A DNA stretch of 64,000 bases from a virus: IMG/VR virus record IMGVR_UViG_3300044691_000429, positions 1-64,000 of that record; one strand, written 5' to 3'. Every line of letters begins with the position of its first letter. Position 1 is the first letter of the stretch. The notes under the pieces are model-generated. The model was not told the origin of the DNA. It did not search any database and saw only the letters and a list, made by a program, of their open reading frames with translations. A program made the position numbers and the translations under genes. Below are positions 3,791 to 23,003 of this stretch, one piece after another.

Positions 3791-3811
3791 CGGACATGGC
3801 AGCGACGACGA

Positions 3812-3838
3812 AGCCCCCGGCCGGGGGGGTCGGGGGCT
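3812..3838 (+). terminator. Hairpin terminator
   Basis: AGCCCCCG (3812-3819) pairs with CGGGGGCT (3831-3838), 22 bases after the membrane-protein stop codon and immediately before the first CRISPR-like repeat. Confidence 0.55.
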
Positions 3839-4039
3839 GTCGTAACCCCGCAGGTGCGGGGAGCAGGGTCATCCACCGACAGTTAGCCGGTTCATCCCCG
3901 CATGCACGGGGAAGGGCGGTGCTGTGAATCTGGACCACTCATCGGGATCGGTCCACCTCCGCCTGCGCGGAGAGAGGTTGCGCTATGGATCTGCGCCACC
4001 AGCCAGAACCGGTACACCCCCGCGCGAGCGGGGAGTTCG
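3839..4039 (-). CRISPR. Cas-less, type I-E-like mini CRISPR array (4 diverged repeats)
   Basis: Four 28-29-base repeats start at 3839, 3889, 3950 and 4011. The last three are spaced exactly 61 bases, giving 32-base spacers at 3918-3949 and 3979-4010 as in type I-E systems; the first interval is 50 bases. The repeat at 3889 begins GGTTCATCCCCGC and continues CGGGGAA, close to the E. coli I-E repeat in reverse orientation, so transcription would be leftward. All repeats keep the hairpin: CCCCGC/GCGGGG in two, CTCCGC/GCGGAG in the third (a compensatory change), CCCCG/CGGGG in the other. No cas genes lie in the window, so any activity would need host Cascade. Repeat divergence suggests an old or decaying array. 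Confidence 0.75.
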
Positions 4040-4066
4040 CCAACCGGGGCGGGCTTAACGCCCCGG
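4040..4066. repeat. 10-bp inverted repeat beside the CRISPR array
   Basis: AACCGGGGCG (4040-4049) and CGCCCCGGTT (4057-4066) form a perfect stem with a 7-base loop, directly next to the last CRISPR-like repeat. It may be a terminator or part of the array leader. Confidence 0.5.
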
Positions 4067-4146
4067 TTGAACGCCTTCACCCTAGCGTGCCATGTCGTCC
4101 GGCGGGGTCGGAATGCCTCAAGAGCGAGGCACTGTCAGCGAACCTC

Positions 4147-4176
4147 TTGACGCTTCCTATTTTAGGAAGCTACGGT
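4147..4176 (+). promoter_or_regulatory. Promoter with a palindromic operator between -35 and -10
   Basis: TTGACG (4147-4152) and TACGGT (4171-4176) are spaced 18 bp. The spacer is filled by the palindrome CTTCCTATTTTAGGAAG (4153-4169). A protein on this site would block polymerase. It drives the DUF1870-like HTH gene at 4229, which is the obvious candidate autoregulator. Confidence 0.7.
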
Positions 4177-4228: not shown

Positions 4229-5218
4229 ATGACCAGCACCGTCCGCATCATCCCCTGCACCGAACCGGCCGGCCTGCACCGGCACTTCGGCCAGGAGGGC
4301 GAGGCCCAGCCCTGCTACATCGAACTCGACCTCCGTGCGGACACTCTCCTTGCGACCGTGGACGTCGAAGTCGGCGGCGCCGTCCCGTTCTCGACCCACT
4401 ACGGCTTCGAACGCCGCTACGGCATTCCCGTCCTCACCGCCGAGGCGGCGAACCGTGCGATGGAGGCGCTGCGGCCCTTCGCGGAGCGGATCCTCGCCGA
4501 CTGGGAGGAGCACTGGAACGGCGAAAACATGGTCGCCCGCCTCGGAGAGGACGCCAAGGCCGCCGAGAGCGCCATCTCCGACCACCTCGGCCTCGGAGAA
4601 GCTTCCTACGGCGGTGAGGGCGTCTTCGACGCGTCCGACCTGGTTGCGGAGTGGGACCTGGAAGGCGCTGTCAACGGCCTGGAGGCCGACGAGTACGACA
4701 TCATCGCCGACACCACGGACGACCGCCTCGCGGAGATCGCCTCCGAGATCACCGAGGGTCTTGCGGCGAGCGGAGAGAGCAGCGTGGCCGTCGTCCACGG
4801 CCTGGACGAGTACCTCGCGGAGATCCGCGACGGCCTTGCCGAGGCGGAGCGGATGAGTGACGCCGAGTTCCGGGTGCTGCGGGAGTCCCTCGGGCTGACC
4901 GCGGACTGGCTCGCCGGGCACCTGTCCGTCTCGAACCGCACCGTCCGCCACTGGGAGCAGGGCAAGTACCCGGTGCCCCACGGCGTCGGCAAGACCCTGC
5001 GCGACCTGGAGGAGGAGACCGCGGCCCTGGTGAAGGAGACCGCGGACGAACTGCTGGAGGACTACGCGACCGGCCCGCAGCCTGAGATCACGGTGTACCG
5101 CACGGACGAGGCGTACCTCGCCAGCGACCCGGAGCCGGTCCGGTCTGCGTCGTGGCACCGCGCGTTCGTCGCCCGCGTCGCACAGCAGGCGCCGGTGACC
5201 ATCACCTACGACGCCTGA
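4229..5218 (+). CDS. DUF1870/Aca2-like HTH protein with long N-terminal extension
   Basis: 329 residues. The C-terminal third resembles the DUF1870 (YdiL/Aca2) family: SDAEFRVLRESLGLTADWLA then VSNRTVRHWEQGKYPVP forms the HTH (about 212-250), and a TVYRTDEAYLASDP segment precedes a conserved Trp near the end. Aca2 proteins are repressors of anti-CRISPR operons, and the promoter upstream carries a palindrome consistent with autoregulation. The N-terminal ~200 residues (acidic, with HFGQEGEAQPCYIELDLRAD early) are not recognised; they resemble proteins of Streptomyces plasmids. A very strong terminator follows. Confidence 0.7.
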   Translation: MTSTVRIIPCTEPAGLHRHFGQEGEAQPCYIELDLRADTLLATVDVEVGGAVPFSTHYGFERRYGIPVLTAEAANRAMEALRPFAERILADWEEHWNGENMVARLGEDAKAAESAISDHLGLGEASYGGEGVFDASDLVAEWDLEGAVNGLEADEYDIIADTTDDRLAEIASEITEGLAASGESSVAVVHGLDEYLAEIRDGLAEAERMSDAEFRVLRESLGLTADWLAGHLSVSNRTVRHWEQGKYPVPHGVGKTLRDLEEETAALVKETADELLEDYATGPQPEITVYRTDEAYLASDPEPVRSASWHRAFVARVAQQAPVTITYDA

Positions 5219-9209: not shown

Positions 9210-9434
9210 GTGTACCTCCACCAGTTGCGCGCCGCGATGGCCACGATCCGCGCCCGCTGGGAGCACGGGCACGACGGGCTCACCCCGGGGTGCGCGCTGT
9301 GCGCCGACGAGCAGGCCGAGGTGCGGGCGCTCATCGCCGTCGACCGGGCGCTGACGGGGCGGCACGAAACCCGCTGGCCGGCCCCGCACGGAACGTCCAC
9401 CATCAGGACCACCCACCAGAAAGGCCCGCTGTGA
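9210..9434 (+). CDS. Small hypothetical protein upstream of RNA ligase
   Basis: 74 residues, GTG after GAGAGGAG. Contains HGHDGLTPGCALCADEQAEV, a possible Cys/His metal site. Its stop overlaps the GTG of the RNA ligase gene, so the two are probably co-translated. Confidence 0.55.
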   Translation: MYLHQLRAAMATIRARWEHGHDGLTPGCALCADEQAEVRALIAVDRALTGRHETRWPAPHGTSTIRTTHQKGPL

Positions 9435-10558
9435 CCCAGCTCGACAGCCTCATCCCGCCCGCAGACCTGGCCGCCGCGATCGAGGCTGGCCACGTCACCC
9501 GCAAGACCCACCCGGCGCTGCCTCTCTCGATCTACACCTACACGCGGGAGTGCCAGTACGGGCACATCTGGACGCCGGTCACGATGCGGTGCCGCGGCCT
9601 GATCTCTGACGACGTGTCCGGCGAGGTGGTGGCCCTGCCGTTCCCGAAGATTTTCGTGACCGGCATGCACGGCGTCTTCGATTTCGCGCCGCCGCTCCCG
9701 GCCGAGCCGTTCGAGATCTTCGAGAAGGCCGACGGCTCGCTGATCATCGCGTTCTACTACGACGGCCGGTGGCACGCCGCGTCCAAGGGCTCGTTCATCA
9801 GCGAGCAGGCCGTGTGGGCGCAGGAAGTCCTCGACAGCGCGGACCTGAGCGGCCTCGACACGGGCCTGACGCACCTGGCCGAGGCGATCTACCCGGCCAA
9901 CCGCATCGTCGTGGACTACGGCTCGCGCGAAGAGCTGATGCTGCTGGCCGCCTACCGGCCGGCCGACGGGACCGAAGCCCCGCTGTCCGAGGTGGCCTCC
10001 CAGTGGAAGCCGGTCGGCCCCGTCGTCCGGTCGTGGGGCCTGAGCGATGGTCTCGCCGAGCTGGAGCAGCTTGCCGTCGCGAGCACGACTCTCGCCGGCG
10101 CCACGGTCGGCGGCACCGAAGAGGAGGGCTACGTCATCCGGTACGCCTCCGGTGCCCGCGCGAAGATCAAGCTGTCCGCCTACCTGACGCTGCACAAGCT
10201 GTTCACCGGCACCAACGAGCGCACCATCTGGGAGGTGCTGGCGTCCGGTCAGGAGCCCGCCGTGCTGTTCGACCAGGTCCCGGACGAGTTCGCCGACTGG
10301 GCCCGTGGGATCGCGGCCGGCCTGCGCGAGCAGCACGACCTGCTCGTTGGCGAGGCCACCGACGCCTACGGAACCGTCATGGCGACGCTCCCCGCCGACC
10401 CCGACCGGAAGACCTTCGCGCTGGCCGCGGTGAAGTCCGAGTACCGGTCCGCCCTGTTCCTCGTCCACGACGGCCGCGACAAGGCGGTCGGCGACTGGGC
10501 GTGGAAGCAGATCAAGCCCCGCGGCGACAAGCCGTTCAAGAACGACGAGGAAGGCTGA
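9431..10558 (+). CDS. T4 Rnl1-like RNA ligase
   Basis: 375 residues, GTG start overlapping the upstream stop. The nucleotidyltransferase motif I is EKADGSLII (about residues 97-105), with Lys98 the predicted AMP-accepting lysine. Motif Ia-like AASKGSF follows, then VDYGSREELMLLAAYR (motif III region), EEEGYVIRY (motif IV) and ARAKIKLSAYLTLHKL (motif V; both lysines present). This order and the LHKL ending fit the T4 Rnl1 family, which re-joins broken tRNA. The next gene encodes the matching end-healing enzyme, so the pair forms an RNA-repair cassette. Confidence 0.9.
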   Translation: MTQLDSLIPPADLAAAIEAGHVTRKTHPALPLSIYTYTRECQYGHIWTPVTMRCRGLISDDVSGEVVALPFPKIFVTGMHGVFDFAPPLPAEPFEIFEKADGSLIIAFYYDGRWHAASKGSFISEQAVWAQEVLDSADLSGLDTGLTHLAEAIYPANRIVVDYGSREELMLLAAYRPADGTEAPLSEVASQWKPVGPVVRSWGLSDGLAELEQLAVASTTLAGATVGGTEEEGYVIRYASGARAKIKLSAYLTLHKLFTGTNERTIWEVLASGQEPAVLFDQVPDEFADWARGIAAGLREQHDLLVGEATDAYGTVMATLPADPDRKTFALAAVKSEYRSALFLVHDGRDKAVGDWAWKQIKPRGDKPFKNDEEG

Positions 10559-10559
10559 C

Positions 10560-11477
10560 ATGCCCACGATCCACGTCATGACCGGGTTGCCAGCAAGCGG
10601 CAAAACAACGGCGGCCCGCCAGATGCTCGCCGAGTCCAAGGGCCGCATCCGGCGCGTCAACCTGGACGACCTGCGGGCGATGCTCGACTACTCCGGCACC
10701 GGTGAGCGGGTGTGGTCCCACGCCCACGAGCAGACCGCGCTGGGCATCCAGGACTCTGCGGTGCGCGAGGCCATAGCGGGCGGCTTCGATGTCGTGGTCG
10801 ACAACACGCACCTGACGCCGCATATCCCGAAGCGCCTCAAGGCCGCCGCGCTCGGGCAGGCCGCATTCCAGGTGCACGACTTCACCGGCGTGCCCATCGA
10901 GGAGTGCCTGCGCCGGGATGCCGTCCGGGAGGTGTCGGTCGGCGAAGACGTGATCCGCAAGCTGCACGCCAACCACGTCAAGGCCACCCGCAACGGCTGG
11001 CGCCTCACCGATGCGTGGATGAACGACGCCCCGGCCGTCGAGCACTACGTGCCCGACGTCTCGCTGCCGTCCGCGATCATGTGCGACATCGACGGGACCC
11101 TCGCGCTCATGGGCGACCGCGGCCCGTTCGACTTCGCCCGCTGCGGCGAAGACCTCCTCAACGAGTCCGTGCGCCGGGCGCTCGTCTCGTTTCGCCTGGC
11201 GAACGACGACCGGATCGTCCTGCTGTCCGGCCGCGGCGACGACTTCCGTACCGAGACCGAGGCGTGGTTGGCCAAGCACGACGTGCCGTTCGACGAGTTG
11301 TGGATGCGCGCGACCGGCGACTCCCGCCGGGACGACATCGTGAAGGCCGAGCTGTTCAACGAGCACGTCAGGAACCGGTTCCACGTGCGGGTCAGCCTGG
11401 ACGACCGCGACAGGGTCGTGGCCCTCTGGCGGCGCATGGGGCTGCCGACGTGGCAGGTCAACTACGGAGCCTTCTAG
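10560..11477 (+). CDS. Polynucleotide kinase-phosphatase (T4 Pnkp-like)
   Basis: 305 residues. N-terminal kinase: GLPASGKTT P-loop (about 9-17), VNLDDLRAMLDY and DNTHLTP. C-terminal acylphosphatase of the DxDGT/HAD type: MCDIDGTLA (about 174-182), LLSGRGDDFR, and the terminal LDDRDRVVALWRRMGLPTWQ. This is the domain order of T4 Pnkp, which removes 3'/cyclic phosphates and adds 5' phosphate so that Rnl1 can seal. One base separates it from the ligase gene. The predicted role is repair of tRNA cut by host anticodon nucleases. Confidence 0.92.
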   Translation: MPTIHVMTGLPASGKTTAARQMLAESKGRIRRVNLDDLRAMLDYSGTGERVWSHAHEQTALGIQDSAVREAIAGGFDVVVDNTHLTPHIPKRLKAAALGQAAFQVHDFTGVPIEECLRRDAVREVSVGEDVIRKLHANHVKATRNGWRLTDAWMNDAPAVEHYVPDVSLPSAIMCDIDGTLALMGDRGPFDFARCGEDLLNESVRRALVSFRLANDDRIVLLSGRGDDFRTETEAWLAKHDVPFDELWMRATGDSRRDDIVKAELFNEHVRNRFHVRVSLDDRDRVVALWRRMGLPTWQVNYGAF

Positions 11478-20407: not shown

Positions 20408-20622
20408 TGACCGACTGGATTGACCGGATGCTCGCCGATGGGCTGGCCCGCGCCGGGGGCCTGTTCGCTCAGGAGCAGCATCTCGGGCAGCAGTTGTGGA
20501 GCGTCGGCGGGTGGCGCTGCTACGGGCGCATGATGCCCGATGGAAGCGCCTTGACGATCCGGCGTCCCGGGAAGGCGCTGGCCTACGAGATCGTCGGCGT
20601 GGACCTGGACGCCCTGAAGTGA
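20407..20622 (+). CDS. Hypothetical protein between terminase subunits
   Basis: 71 residues, overlapping both terminase genes by a few bases. Helical start (DWIDRMLADGLARAGGLF), beta-rich end (GWRCYGRMMPDGSALTIRRP). Probably co-translated with the packaging genes. Function unknown. Confidence 0.5.
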   Translation: MTDWIDRMLADGLARAGGLFAQEQHLGQQLWSVGGWRCYGRMMPDGSALTIRRPGKALAYEIVGVDLDALK

Positions 20623-23003
20623 CCATGGCGGTGGCTCCGGGGACGCTGCACCGGTACGAGCCTTGGGGTTCGGCGCTTGATTTGATGGAGTGCCGGCTGC
20701 CGCAGGTCTTGCTGTCGGGGCCGGCGGGTACGGGCAAGAGCCGGGCGTGCATGGAGAAGCTGCACCTGATGGCGTTGGCGAACCCGGGGATGCGCGGGCT
20801 GATCGTCCGCAAGACGCGGGAGTCGCTGGGGTCGACGGCGCTGGTGACGTGGCGGGAGCACGTGGCGAAGGAGGCGATCGCCGCAGGCATCGTGTCGTTC
20901 TACGGGGGCTCGGCGGAGGAGCCGCCGCAGTACCGGTACGTGAACGGCTCGAAGATCATGATCGGCGGAATGGACAAGCCGACGAAGATCATGTCTTCGG
21001 AGTACGACGTCGCCTACGTGCAGGAAGCCATCGAGCTGACGACCACCGACTGGGAGAACATCACCACCCGCCTCCGGAACGGCAAGGTCAGCTTTCAGCA
21101 GCTCATAGCGGACGCCAACCCCGACATGCCCAGCCACTGGCTCAAGCAGCACTGCGACCGCGGCACGGCCCGGATGGTCCACTGCCGCCACGAGGACAAC
21201 CCCGTCCTGTTCAACGCCGACGGCACCATGACGGTCAAGGGCGAGGCGTACATGAAGCTCCTGGATGCCCTGACCGGCGTCCGGCTGCAACGCCTGCGCC
21301 ACGGCCGCTGGGTGTCCGCAGAGGGCATGATCTACGAAGGCTTCGATCCCACCATTCACCTGGTCGATCAGTTCCCCATCCCGGACAGCTGGACGCGTTG
21401 GTGGTCGGTGGACTTCGGCTTCACCAACCCGTTCGTCTTGCAGTGCTGGGCTGAGGATCCTGACGGCCGGCTGTACCTCTACCGCGAGATCTACAAGACG
21501 AAGACTCTCGTCGAGGACCACGCGAAGCGGATCCTGCGCGAAGTCACGGCCTGCACCAACTGCTGCGATTCCACGGCCGACAGCCACGACTGCTACGAGT
21601 GCGACCGGTGCGGCAAGACGTGGACCGAACCGAAGCCGCGCGCGATCATCTGCGACCACGACGCGGAGGACCGGGCGACGCTGGAGCGGCACCTGGGCCT
21701 GTCCACCAGCCCGGCGCACAAGTCGGTGTCCGACGGGATCCAGGCCGTCAACACCCGCTACAAGGTGGCCGATGACGGCCGCGCGCGGCTGTTCATCGTG
21801 CGCGGTGCGGTAGTCGAGCGGGACGAGGCGCTCGACGCGGCGAAGAAGCCGTGCTGCACAGAGGAGGAGATCCCGGGTTACGTCTGGGATCGCGGTACTC
21901 CGTCGCAACAACTCGCGGACAAGCCGCCGAAGGAAGTCCCCGTGAAGATCAACGACCACGGGTGCCTCATCGCCGGAACGATGGTGGCCACTCCCGATGG
22001 CGAGCGCCCCATTGAGTCGATACGCGCGGGAGATCTGGTGATGACCCGTCGCGGCGCCCGTTCGGTCGTGGCGGCGGGGATGACTTCGCCGGAAGCCGTC
22101 ACGGTGTCGGTCGCTTTGAGTAATGAAAGGGTCCTGACGGGCACGGGGAATCACCCGGTGTGGGTAGCGGGGAAGGGTTGGATTCGGCTGGATGCGTTGC
22201 GATATGACGATAAGCTGGTTGCATGTCAGACACCGTCGTCTTCCGGGGTATCAGCTTCCGTCGATACCCCGACTCGCCTCATCTCGCCCAGCGGAACTAC
22301 TACACCCCCGGCATTGCTGACCGTAAGCGAGGGGTGCAACACCTCCACATCGAGATCTGGAAAGCTCACCACGGGTGCGCCGTCCCTCCTGGCTGCGAGA
22401 TCCACCACGTCGACCTCAACCCCCTCAACAACGACCTCGCCAACCTGGCCTGCCTCACCGTGGCCGAACACAAGGAAGTCCACCGCGAGCAGGGAAGGGT
22501 ACGCGGACGAACGCCTGAGTTCCGCGCTCACCTTGACCGAATACGACCCCTCACTGTCAACTGGCATCAGTCAGCCGATGGACGCGAGTGGCACAAGCAA
22601 CATGCGGCTGAGCAGGGCCTCGGCCACGGTGAGCAGCGGTCTTCCGTCTGCGATCACTGCGGGGGCGGGTACGAAACCGCCGTTGTCCACCGCCTCGATC
22701 GCTTCTGCTCCAACAAGTGCAAGTCGGCGGCACGCCGCGAGAGCGGAGTCGACAACGAGCAGCGGTCTTGCGCACGATGCGGAACCGAGTTCACCGTCAA
22801 CCGCTACGCCAAGAAGGAATGCTGCGGTCGTGTCTGTGCGCAGCGTCTCCGCGTCGACAGGGCCCGCGCCGGTGTTCAACCTGACGGTCGCTGACCAGCC
22901 GGAGTACTTCGCCAACGGCGCACTAGTCCACAACTGCGACGCAAAACGGTACGTGGTCGCCGAGCTCGACTTGGTCGGCCGGCCGAACATTCGCTGGCTC
23001 TGA
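20619..23003 (+). CDS. Terminase large subunit precursor, interrupted by an intein
   Basis: 794-residue precursor; removing the intein (residues 449-772) leaves about 470 residues, a normal TerL size. ATPase: Walker A GPAGTGKS (34-41), Walker B-like VAYVQEA. A zinc-knuckle-rich segment (CTNCC ... CYECDRCG) is inserted in the nuclease domain. Nuclease: WWSVDFGFTNPF carries the first Asp, ICDHDAED the second acidic group, and INDHG plus CDAKRY, joined only after splicing, restores the third active-site motif. TerL cuts and pumps phage DNA. GTG at 20619 overlaps the upstream stop; ATG at 20625 is an equal alternative. Confidence 0.93.
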   Translation: MTMAVAPGTLHRYEPWGSALDLMECRLPQVLLSGPAGTGKSRACMEKLHLMALANPGMRGLIVRKTRESLGSTALVTWREHVAKEAIAAGIVSFYGGSAEEPPQYRYVNGSKIMIGGMDKPTKIMSSEYDVAYVQEAIELTTTDWENITTRLRNGKVSFQQLIADANPDMPSHWLKQHCDRGTARMVHCRHEDNPVLFNADGTMTVKGEAYMKLLDALTGVRLQRLRHGRWVSAEGMIYEGFDPTIHLVDQFPIPDSWTRWWSVDFGFTNPFVLQCWAEDPDGRLYLYREIYKTKTLVEDHAKRILREVTACTNCCDSTADSHDCYECDRCGKTWTEPKPRAIICDHDAEDRATLERHLGLSTSPAHKSVSDGIQAVNTRYKVADDGRARLFIVRGAVVERDEALDAAKKPCCTEEEIPGYVWDRGTPSQQLADKPPKEVPVKINDHGCLIAGTMVATPDGERPIESIRAGDLVMTRRGARSVVAAGMTSPEAVTVSVALSNERVLTGTGNHPVWVAGKGWIRLDALRYDDKLVACQTPSSSGVSASVDTPTRLISPSGTTTPPALLTVSEGCNTSTSRSGKLTTGAPSLLAARSTTSTSTPSTTTSPTWPASPWPNTRKSTASREGYADERLSSALTLTEYDPSLSTGISQPMDASGTSNMRLSRASATVSSGLPSAITAGAGTKPPLSTASIASAPTSASRRHAARAESTTSSGLAHDAEPSSPSTATPRRNAAVVSVRSVSASTGPAPVFNLTVADQPEYFANGALVHNCDAKRYVVAELDLVGRPNIRWL
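21963..22934 (+). other. Intein in the terminase nuclease motif
   Basis: 324 residues within the terminase frame. Block A starts at the nucleophile Cys: CLIAGTMVATPDGERPI. Block B is TGNHPVW (about 61-67) with the catalytic His. C-terminal blocks F/G are VFNLTVADQPEYFANGALVHN, ending His-Asn with Cys as the first downstream residue, so every splicing residue is present. Between blocks B and F the frame encodes about 215 Ser/Thr/Pro/Ala-rich residues with no endonuclease motif; that DNA encodes an HNH protein in another frame. Without it the splicing domain is only about 108 residues, near the lower limit for a mini-intein. Confidence 0.92.
22223..22894 (+). CDS. HNH homing endonuclease nested out of frame inside the intein
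   Basis: A complete 223-residue gene in another frame than the terminase. ATG at 22223 lies right after intein block B and the TGA falls inside block F. N-terminal HNH domain: GVQHLHIEIWKAHHG, IHHVDLNPLNNDLANLACL (about 60-78), AEHKEVH with metal-binding His. C-terminal zinc fingers: CDHC...CSNKC (143-166) and CARC...CCGRVC (183-205). The layout resembles free-standing or intron-type HNH homing enzymes. No good ribosome binding site precedes the ATG. By hand count, 45 of the first 60 codons end in G/C, against 38 of 60 in the terminase frame. Confidence 0.88.
   Translation: MSDTVVFRGISFRRYPDSPHLAQRNYYTPGIADRKRGVQHLHIEIWKAHHGCAVPPGCEIHHVDLNPLNNDLANLACLTVAEHKEVHREQGRVRGRTPEFRAHLDRIRPLTVNWHQSADGREWHKQHAAEQGLGHGEQRSSVCDHCGGGYETAVVHRLDRFCSNKCKSAARRESGVDNEQRSCARCGTEFTVNRYAKKECCGRVCAQRLRVDRARAGVQPDGR

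Follow-up and report, generated by a model that had tools for sequence, protein, structure and literature searches.

A phage pseudo-CRISPR array next to an Aca2-like regulator gene

Why would a phage that encodes no Cas proteins carry a row of CRISPR-like repeats? To address this question, we analyzed the first 64,000 nucleotides (here called the window) of IMG/VR virus record IMGVR_UViG_3300044691_000429, a 93,141-bp linear record that encodes terminase, portal, capsid and tape-measure proteins and a tyrosine integrase. The virus is a Streptomyces phage and probably a phage-plasmid. A preliminary description had noted three hairpin repeats in the window at an exact 61-bp period with 32-nt spacers, and had proposed that the element borrows the host type I-E Cascade to target rival viruses. 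The observation held and was extended here by a fourth repeat. The interpretation was supported only in part, as the anatomy supports use of host Cas6e/Cascade well but no evidence for the targeting of rival viruses was obtained.

Four diverged repeats and their surroundings

To determine the structure of the array, repeats were mapped on the minus strand, the sense expected for type I-E crRNA, in which the order of elements is R4, 32-nt spacer, R3, 32-nt spacer, R2, 21-nt spacer, R1. The three repeats noted earlier were confirmed as R2 (CGGTTCATCCCCGCATGCACGGGGAAGGG, 3888 to 3916), R3 (CGGTCCACCTCCGCCTGCGCGGAGAGAGG, 3949 to 3977) and R4 (CGGTACACCCCCGCGCGAGCGGGGAGTTC, 4010 to 4038, the first unit in crRNA sense), which are separated by exactly 61 bp. 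A fourth unit, R1 (TGTCGTAACCCCGCAGGTGCGGGGAGCAG, 3838 to 3866), was found 50 bp upstream of R2 on the sequence as numbered. R1 is the last unit in crRNA sense and retains the hairpin CCCCGC/GCGGGG but lacks the GGNNCA 5′ handle, whereas R2 retains a handle (ATGAACCG in crRNA sense). The compensatory stem change CTCCG/CGGAG reported previously is real and lies in R3 (stem CTCCGC/GCGGAG), but the sixth stem pair of R2 is broken (C/A). Thus, the 29-nt repeat with 6-bp stem, 4-nt loop and 8-nt handle of a canonical type I-E array is present with those exceptions in R1 and R2, and two of the three spacers have the canonical 32 nt. The repeats are 22 to 24/29 identical to I-E repeats in a sample of actinobacterial loci, but R2 to R4 are only 66 to 72% identical to each other when aligned by eye, whereas canonical pairs exceed 25/29.

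To ask whether the array could have arisen by chance, a strict unit definition was applied to the window and to 120 dinucleotide-preserving simulations of 64 kb. The window contained three strict units, all of them in the array, while the simulations contained 0.008 units on average and never a pair at 61 bp. The array lies in noncoding DNA between a 94-amino-acid gene and a 329-amino-acid gene, and no Rfam family matched it. No cas gene was found among 58 proteins of the window, and no cas7e was found in the entire 93-kb record. We conclude that the array is real and is not accompanied by cas genes.

Elements flanking the array were also examined, all on the minus strand. An inverted repeat with 11-bp arms (CAACCGGGGCG, 4041 to 4069) lies just before R4 and would form a 5′ hairpin of the array transcript, and similarly positioned elements were seen in related arrays. 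A possible −10 box, TAGGGT (4079 to 4084), was inferred by eye for a leftward array promoter, but no clear −35 element was present and a consensus scan found no promoter. A GC-rich palindrome (3809 to 3832) between the 3′ end of the array and the convergent 94-amino-acid gene resembles a terminator without a T run.

The spacers were then compared with each other and with databases. The 21-nt spacer (3867 to 3887) reads GCTAACTGTCGGTGGATGACC in crRNA sense, S1 (3917 to 3948) begins with ATCCCGATGAGTGGTCC, and S2 occupies 3978 to 4009. S1 and S2 are 18/32 identical (shuffle P of 0.00025), and 11 of the 14 differences are transitions, such that they look like a duplicated and diverged unit rather than two acquisitions. 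The spacers had no match in INPHARED, the array DNA had no relative there, PAM-plus-seed patterns had no match in 2.9 million viral contigs, and plasmids gave only chance-level hits. A spacer-core pattern found five loci in viral contigs, the number expected by chance. Pattern scans of 392 Streptomyces genomes with both 32-nt guides gave no convincing target. S1 was matched in 11 genomes, nearly all with the same sequence, but the one examined lies in a membrane-protein-like gene with a mismatch at seed position 2 and was rejected.

A class of phage arrays with set spacer lengths

To determine whether the array was unique, pattern scans were performed. A scan of viral contigs for the repeat gave 48 stretches, many of them ordinary arrays but several strongly degenerate. 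A scan for two hairpins 49 to 50 bp apart gave 53 stretches, a minority of which were unrelated inverted-repeat pairs, and a scan of bacterial genomes gave 50, a mixture of ordinary CRISPR arrays with one short spacer, isolated short units and prophage arrays. Dozens of virus contigs, mostly actinobacterial, carry arrays of 2 to 8 diverged I-E-like units. In the degenerate arrays, stems are conserved and loops vary, an A follows the stem, and each unit keeps a GGNNCA[TCA] handle before the stem except the terminal unit, which usually lost it.

Spacer lengths in this class were not evenly distributed. Diverged neighboring repeats were separated by spacers of 14 nt (8 cases), 20/21 nt (47 cases) or 32/33 nt (32 cases), with few others, and after removal of the one pair per locus on which loci had been selected, 20/21 (18 cases) and 32/33 (32 cases) still dominated. 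By contrast, 72 of 89 near-identical repeat pairs had 32-nt spacers and none had 14 or 21 nt. A partial scan of spacings of 36 to 60 bp without preselection for 49/50 showed peaks at 49/50 and 43. The steps of 6 and 12 nt fit the 6-nt footprint of Cas7. Moreover, crRNA length sets Cascade size in type I-F (PMC6828817), and spacers shortened to 24 nt or less repress without interference in type I-B (PMC10989794). The lengths therefore suggest RNAs made to fit Cascade, not merely to bind Cas6.

Two guide families were conserved across phages. The 14-nt family is GCTTG.TACTT with position 6 variable (loci L076, L084, L159, L259, L261, L267, L273, L281 and L286, where numbers preceded by L designate individual loci), and the 20-nt family keeps an invariant AGGGG at positions 7 to 11. 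The 14-nt guide had no recurrent host target (6 of 150 genomes, no more than the control) and no target in 37 virus records besides itself. When the 20-nt guide was read as codons (S-F/L-R-G-V), no matching cas motif was found. Handle and spacer can pair in part of the class, and although such pairing was significant for short units overall, it was restricted to a subset and was not used as evidence. We note that many arrays contain two hairpins only 19 to 21 bp apart, too close for a crRNA unit (L029, L048, L065, L076, L078, L089, L270, L273 and L286). Many of the arrays come from metagenomic contigs without a host.

One precedent for short units is the CreA/CreR design, in which two degenerate psi-repeats, with the handle kept in the first and degenerate in the second, use seed positions 1 to 5 and 7 to 11 (PMC8501985; for CreR, PMC12948488 and PMC13131331). 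Isolated chromosomal pairs of the short type were found at cas loci in Bordetella, Pluralibacter, Microbacterium and Aeromicrobium. Those in Bordetella, Pluralibacter and Microbacterium, and further ones in Actinomycetaceae MAGs and Corynebacterium, had 13 to 18 contiguous guide matches (ignoring every sixth base) with an AAG or AAC PAM 40 to 400 bp away, but the Aeromicrobium unit did not. The matched units are probable new CreR/CreA loci (L110/L173, L121/L175, L137/L176, L122, L143 and L153). The window array shares this anatomy and would likewise need host Cascade but differs in that it is phage borne, has several units in a row, lies beside an Aca2-like gene instead of a cas or toxin gene, and has no nearby seed target, the best match in the 93-kb element being 8.

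An Aca2-like gene adjacent to the array

The gene divergent from the array (4229 to 5218, plus strand) encodes a 329-amino-acid protein. Residues 209 to 302 matched the Pfam family Aca2_YdiL (PF08965) at 29.6 bits, above the cutoff of 23.8, and the four best PDB hits of residues 201 to 329 were Aca2 chains (7vjo, 8w35, 7b5j and 7ezy; E values of 1.8e-5 to 1.7e-4), in which the HTH and the dimerization region aligned. The protein differs from these in that the Aca2-like domain is fused to an N-terminal domain of about 200 amino acids (encoded by 4229 to 4830) with no known function and in that it is inferred to regulate an RNA array rather than a protein Acr. The N-terminal region exists alone as hypothetical proteins on several circular 80- to 95-kb Streptomyces plasmids, suggesting that the element is related to phage-plasmids.

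To determine whether proximity to arrays was general, 43 other array-bearing virus records were searched for PF08965. Only three had a match, two of them below the curated cutoff, and in each the match was beside the array, at 107 bp (L072), 223 bp (L080) and about 535 bp (L036). With the window, the hit was near the array in 4 of 4 records (Fisher's combined P of about 1e-4, taking distance divided by the length of the contig as a P value), but only 4 of 44 records have such a neighbor. In prophage L150, the Aca2-like gene ends 46 bp from the array and follows a 162-amino-acid gene (4649 to 5137 of L150, minus strand) with a 4-bp overlap, resembling an acr-aca operon, and the 162-amino-acid product is a candidate anti-CRISPR protein. 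The closest relative of the window protein (52% identity over its length) is encoded on an 84-kb circular Streptomyces plasmid, NZ_CP108117.1, where a two-hairpin array (61 bp) again lies just beside the gene, on its other side. The Pfam score of that relative, 22.6, is just under the cutoff.

A palindrome, GCTTCCTA-TTT-TAGGAAGC (4152 to 4170), lies upstream of the Aca2-like gene and overlaps a promoter-like sequence for that gene, TTGACG-18-TACGGT (4147 to 4176, plus strand), that was read by eye but not found by an automatic consensus scan. The core CCTA.TTTAGG occurs once in the 93-kb element and is also found upstream of the Aca2-like gene on the plasmid (L322) and upstream of the operon in L150. 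Consistent with a likely operator, such a site is what an autoregulating Aca would need. We note, however, that Aca2/YdiL-like regulators also occur outside anti-CRISPR loci (PMC8434428).

Decoy, guide or immune memory

One way to account for these features is that the locus is a multi-unit RNA anti-CRISPR, a reading in which we have moderate confidence. In this view, a leftward RNA, most likely made early, would begin with a stable 5′ hairpin and be cut by host Cas6e at each stem into three crRNA-like RNAs with 32-, 32- and 21-nt spacers, each with a 5′ handle and a 3′ hairpin. The pseudo-crRNAs would occupy Cas6e, Cas5e, Cas7e and Cas8e in complexes that cannot license cleavage of the phage and so take them away from genuine crRNAs, while the Aca2-like protein would bind its palindrome (GCTTCCTATTTTAGGAAGC) and limit expression after infection. 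The analysis itself establishes the anatomy of the array, the spacer-length classes, retention of the handle in all but the terminal unit, the absence of cas genes, the Aca2-like domain and its linkage to arrays, and the shared operator-like palindrome. Transcription, processing by Cas6e, loading of Cascade, inhibition of CRISPR-Cas and repression by the Aca2-like protein are inferred from sequence.

RNA anti-CRISPRs (Racrs) that mimic the host repeat, occur in intergenic DNA of phages without cas genes and cluster with acr genes are established, and two I-E Racrs are proven inhibitors (PMC10651486). Racrs, however, are known only as solitary repeats that lack a usable 5′ handle, whereas here four units form an array and handles are kept, such that full Cascades could form. 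The published search discarded repeats clustered within 100 bp and required 90% identity to known repeats and would therefore have missed this class, and no description of the class was found in the openly accessible literature, a search that did not cover subscription papers and most preprints. Other observations fit less well. Conserved guide families suggest a target, which a pure decoy would not need, and I-E cas7 is not clearly commoner in Streptomyces lysogens than in the genus (59 of 150 over cutoff). If the arrays inhibit type I-E systems, they would be a larger and better organized form of RNA anti-CRISPR, common in actinobacterial phages and easily found by spacing and handle. The quantized spacer lengths would then be a natural experiment on how Cascade size sets function (cleavage, silencing or dead end), and the link to Aca2-like repressors would offer a direct test in Streptomyces.

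A second possibility, less likely but the main alternative, is that the pseudo-crRNAs are true guides that steer host Cascade by seed pairing (positions 1 to 5 and 7 to 11 plus PAM) to repress host genes, above all the cas operon, with short spacers preventing cleavage. Both this and the decoy reading are anti-CRISPR or host-takeover uses of the host Cascade. Consistent with guidance, chromosomal short units at or near cas loci behave in this way, and position 6 of the 14-nt family varies while several neighboring seed positions are conserved. Among 50 cas loci, S1 matched 12 of 12 seed bases with an AAC PAM within the codons of the conserved GLIG motif of cas5e in one Streptomyces (L181), for which we estimate, approximately, a 1% chance for the three window guides. 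Moreover, an integrated element in Streptomyces sp. ST2-7A (L140, 3408 to 3473) carries a 21-nt guide that reads the conserved LNRDDT codons of cas7e with an AAC PAM in four cas loci. Over 117 phage guides and the 50 cas loci, however, six guides hit versus 0 to 5 in shuffles, and the distribution of best matches equaled that of shuffles. Thus, we do not claim cas silencing. It remains possible, although doubtful, that a widespread class of phage arrays programs host Cascade with 14-, 20/21- and 32/33-nt guides as a silencing complex against host genes, possibly cas itself, which would be a natural phage CRISPRi used as an anti-CRISPR and controlled by Aca2-like repressors.

The remaining explanations are unlikely. 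The hairpins could be unrelated to CRISPR and bind some other protein or act as structured RNA or DNA sites, as the hairpins 19 to 21 bp apart and the handle-spacer pairing might suggest, but the I-E handle, stem and following A, the 32/33-nt mode identical to that of canonical arrays, the similarity to host I-E repeats, the same short units at cas loci and the Aca2-like linkage all argue otherwise. Targeting of rival viruses or plasmids, as proposed in the preliminary description, is very unlikely. A cas-less virus array with 32-nt spacers and I-E-like repeats has precedent in mini-CRISPR arrays of archaeal viruses, which carry one or two full-length spacers (PMC6858448), but those have host-like repeats and leaders and spacers that match related viruses. 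Here, no protospacer was found in the phages, viral contigs or plasmids searched, the repeats are too diverged for fresh acquisition, the two 32-nt spacers are homologous, and the class uses 14- and 20/21-nt spacers, at which type I-B interference is lost (PMC10989794). The related spacers, the diverged repeats and the spacer lengths of the class do not fit acquired immune memory, and the neighboring Aca2-like gene points to an anti-CRISPR locus instead. The locus is neither a canonical CRISPR array nor a demonstrated interviral mini-array. Finally, a CreTA-like or autoregulatory guide that represses a gene of the phage itself and senses loss of Cascade has equivalent anatomy in two-psi-repeat creA genes (PMC8501985) but is very unlikely, as no seed match of 9 or more with any PAM was found in the 93-kb element besides the array itself.

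Elsewhere in the window, the large terminase gene (20496 to 23003, plus strand) is interrupted by a Hint/intein domain. In addition, a T4-type RNA ligase lies next to a polynucleotide kinase/phosphatase (PNKP HAD plus AAA_33) at 9290 to 10558 and 10560 to 11474 on the plus strand, an RNA repair pair that could undo tRNA-cutting defenses.
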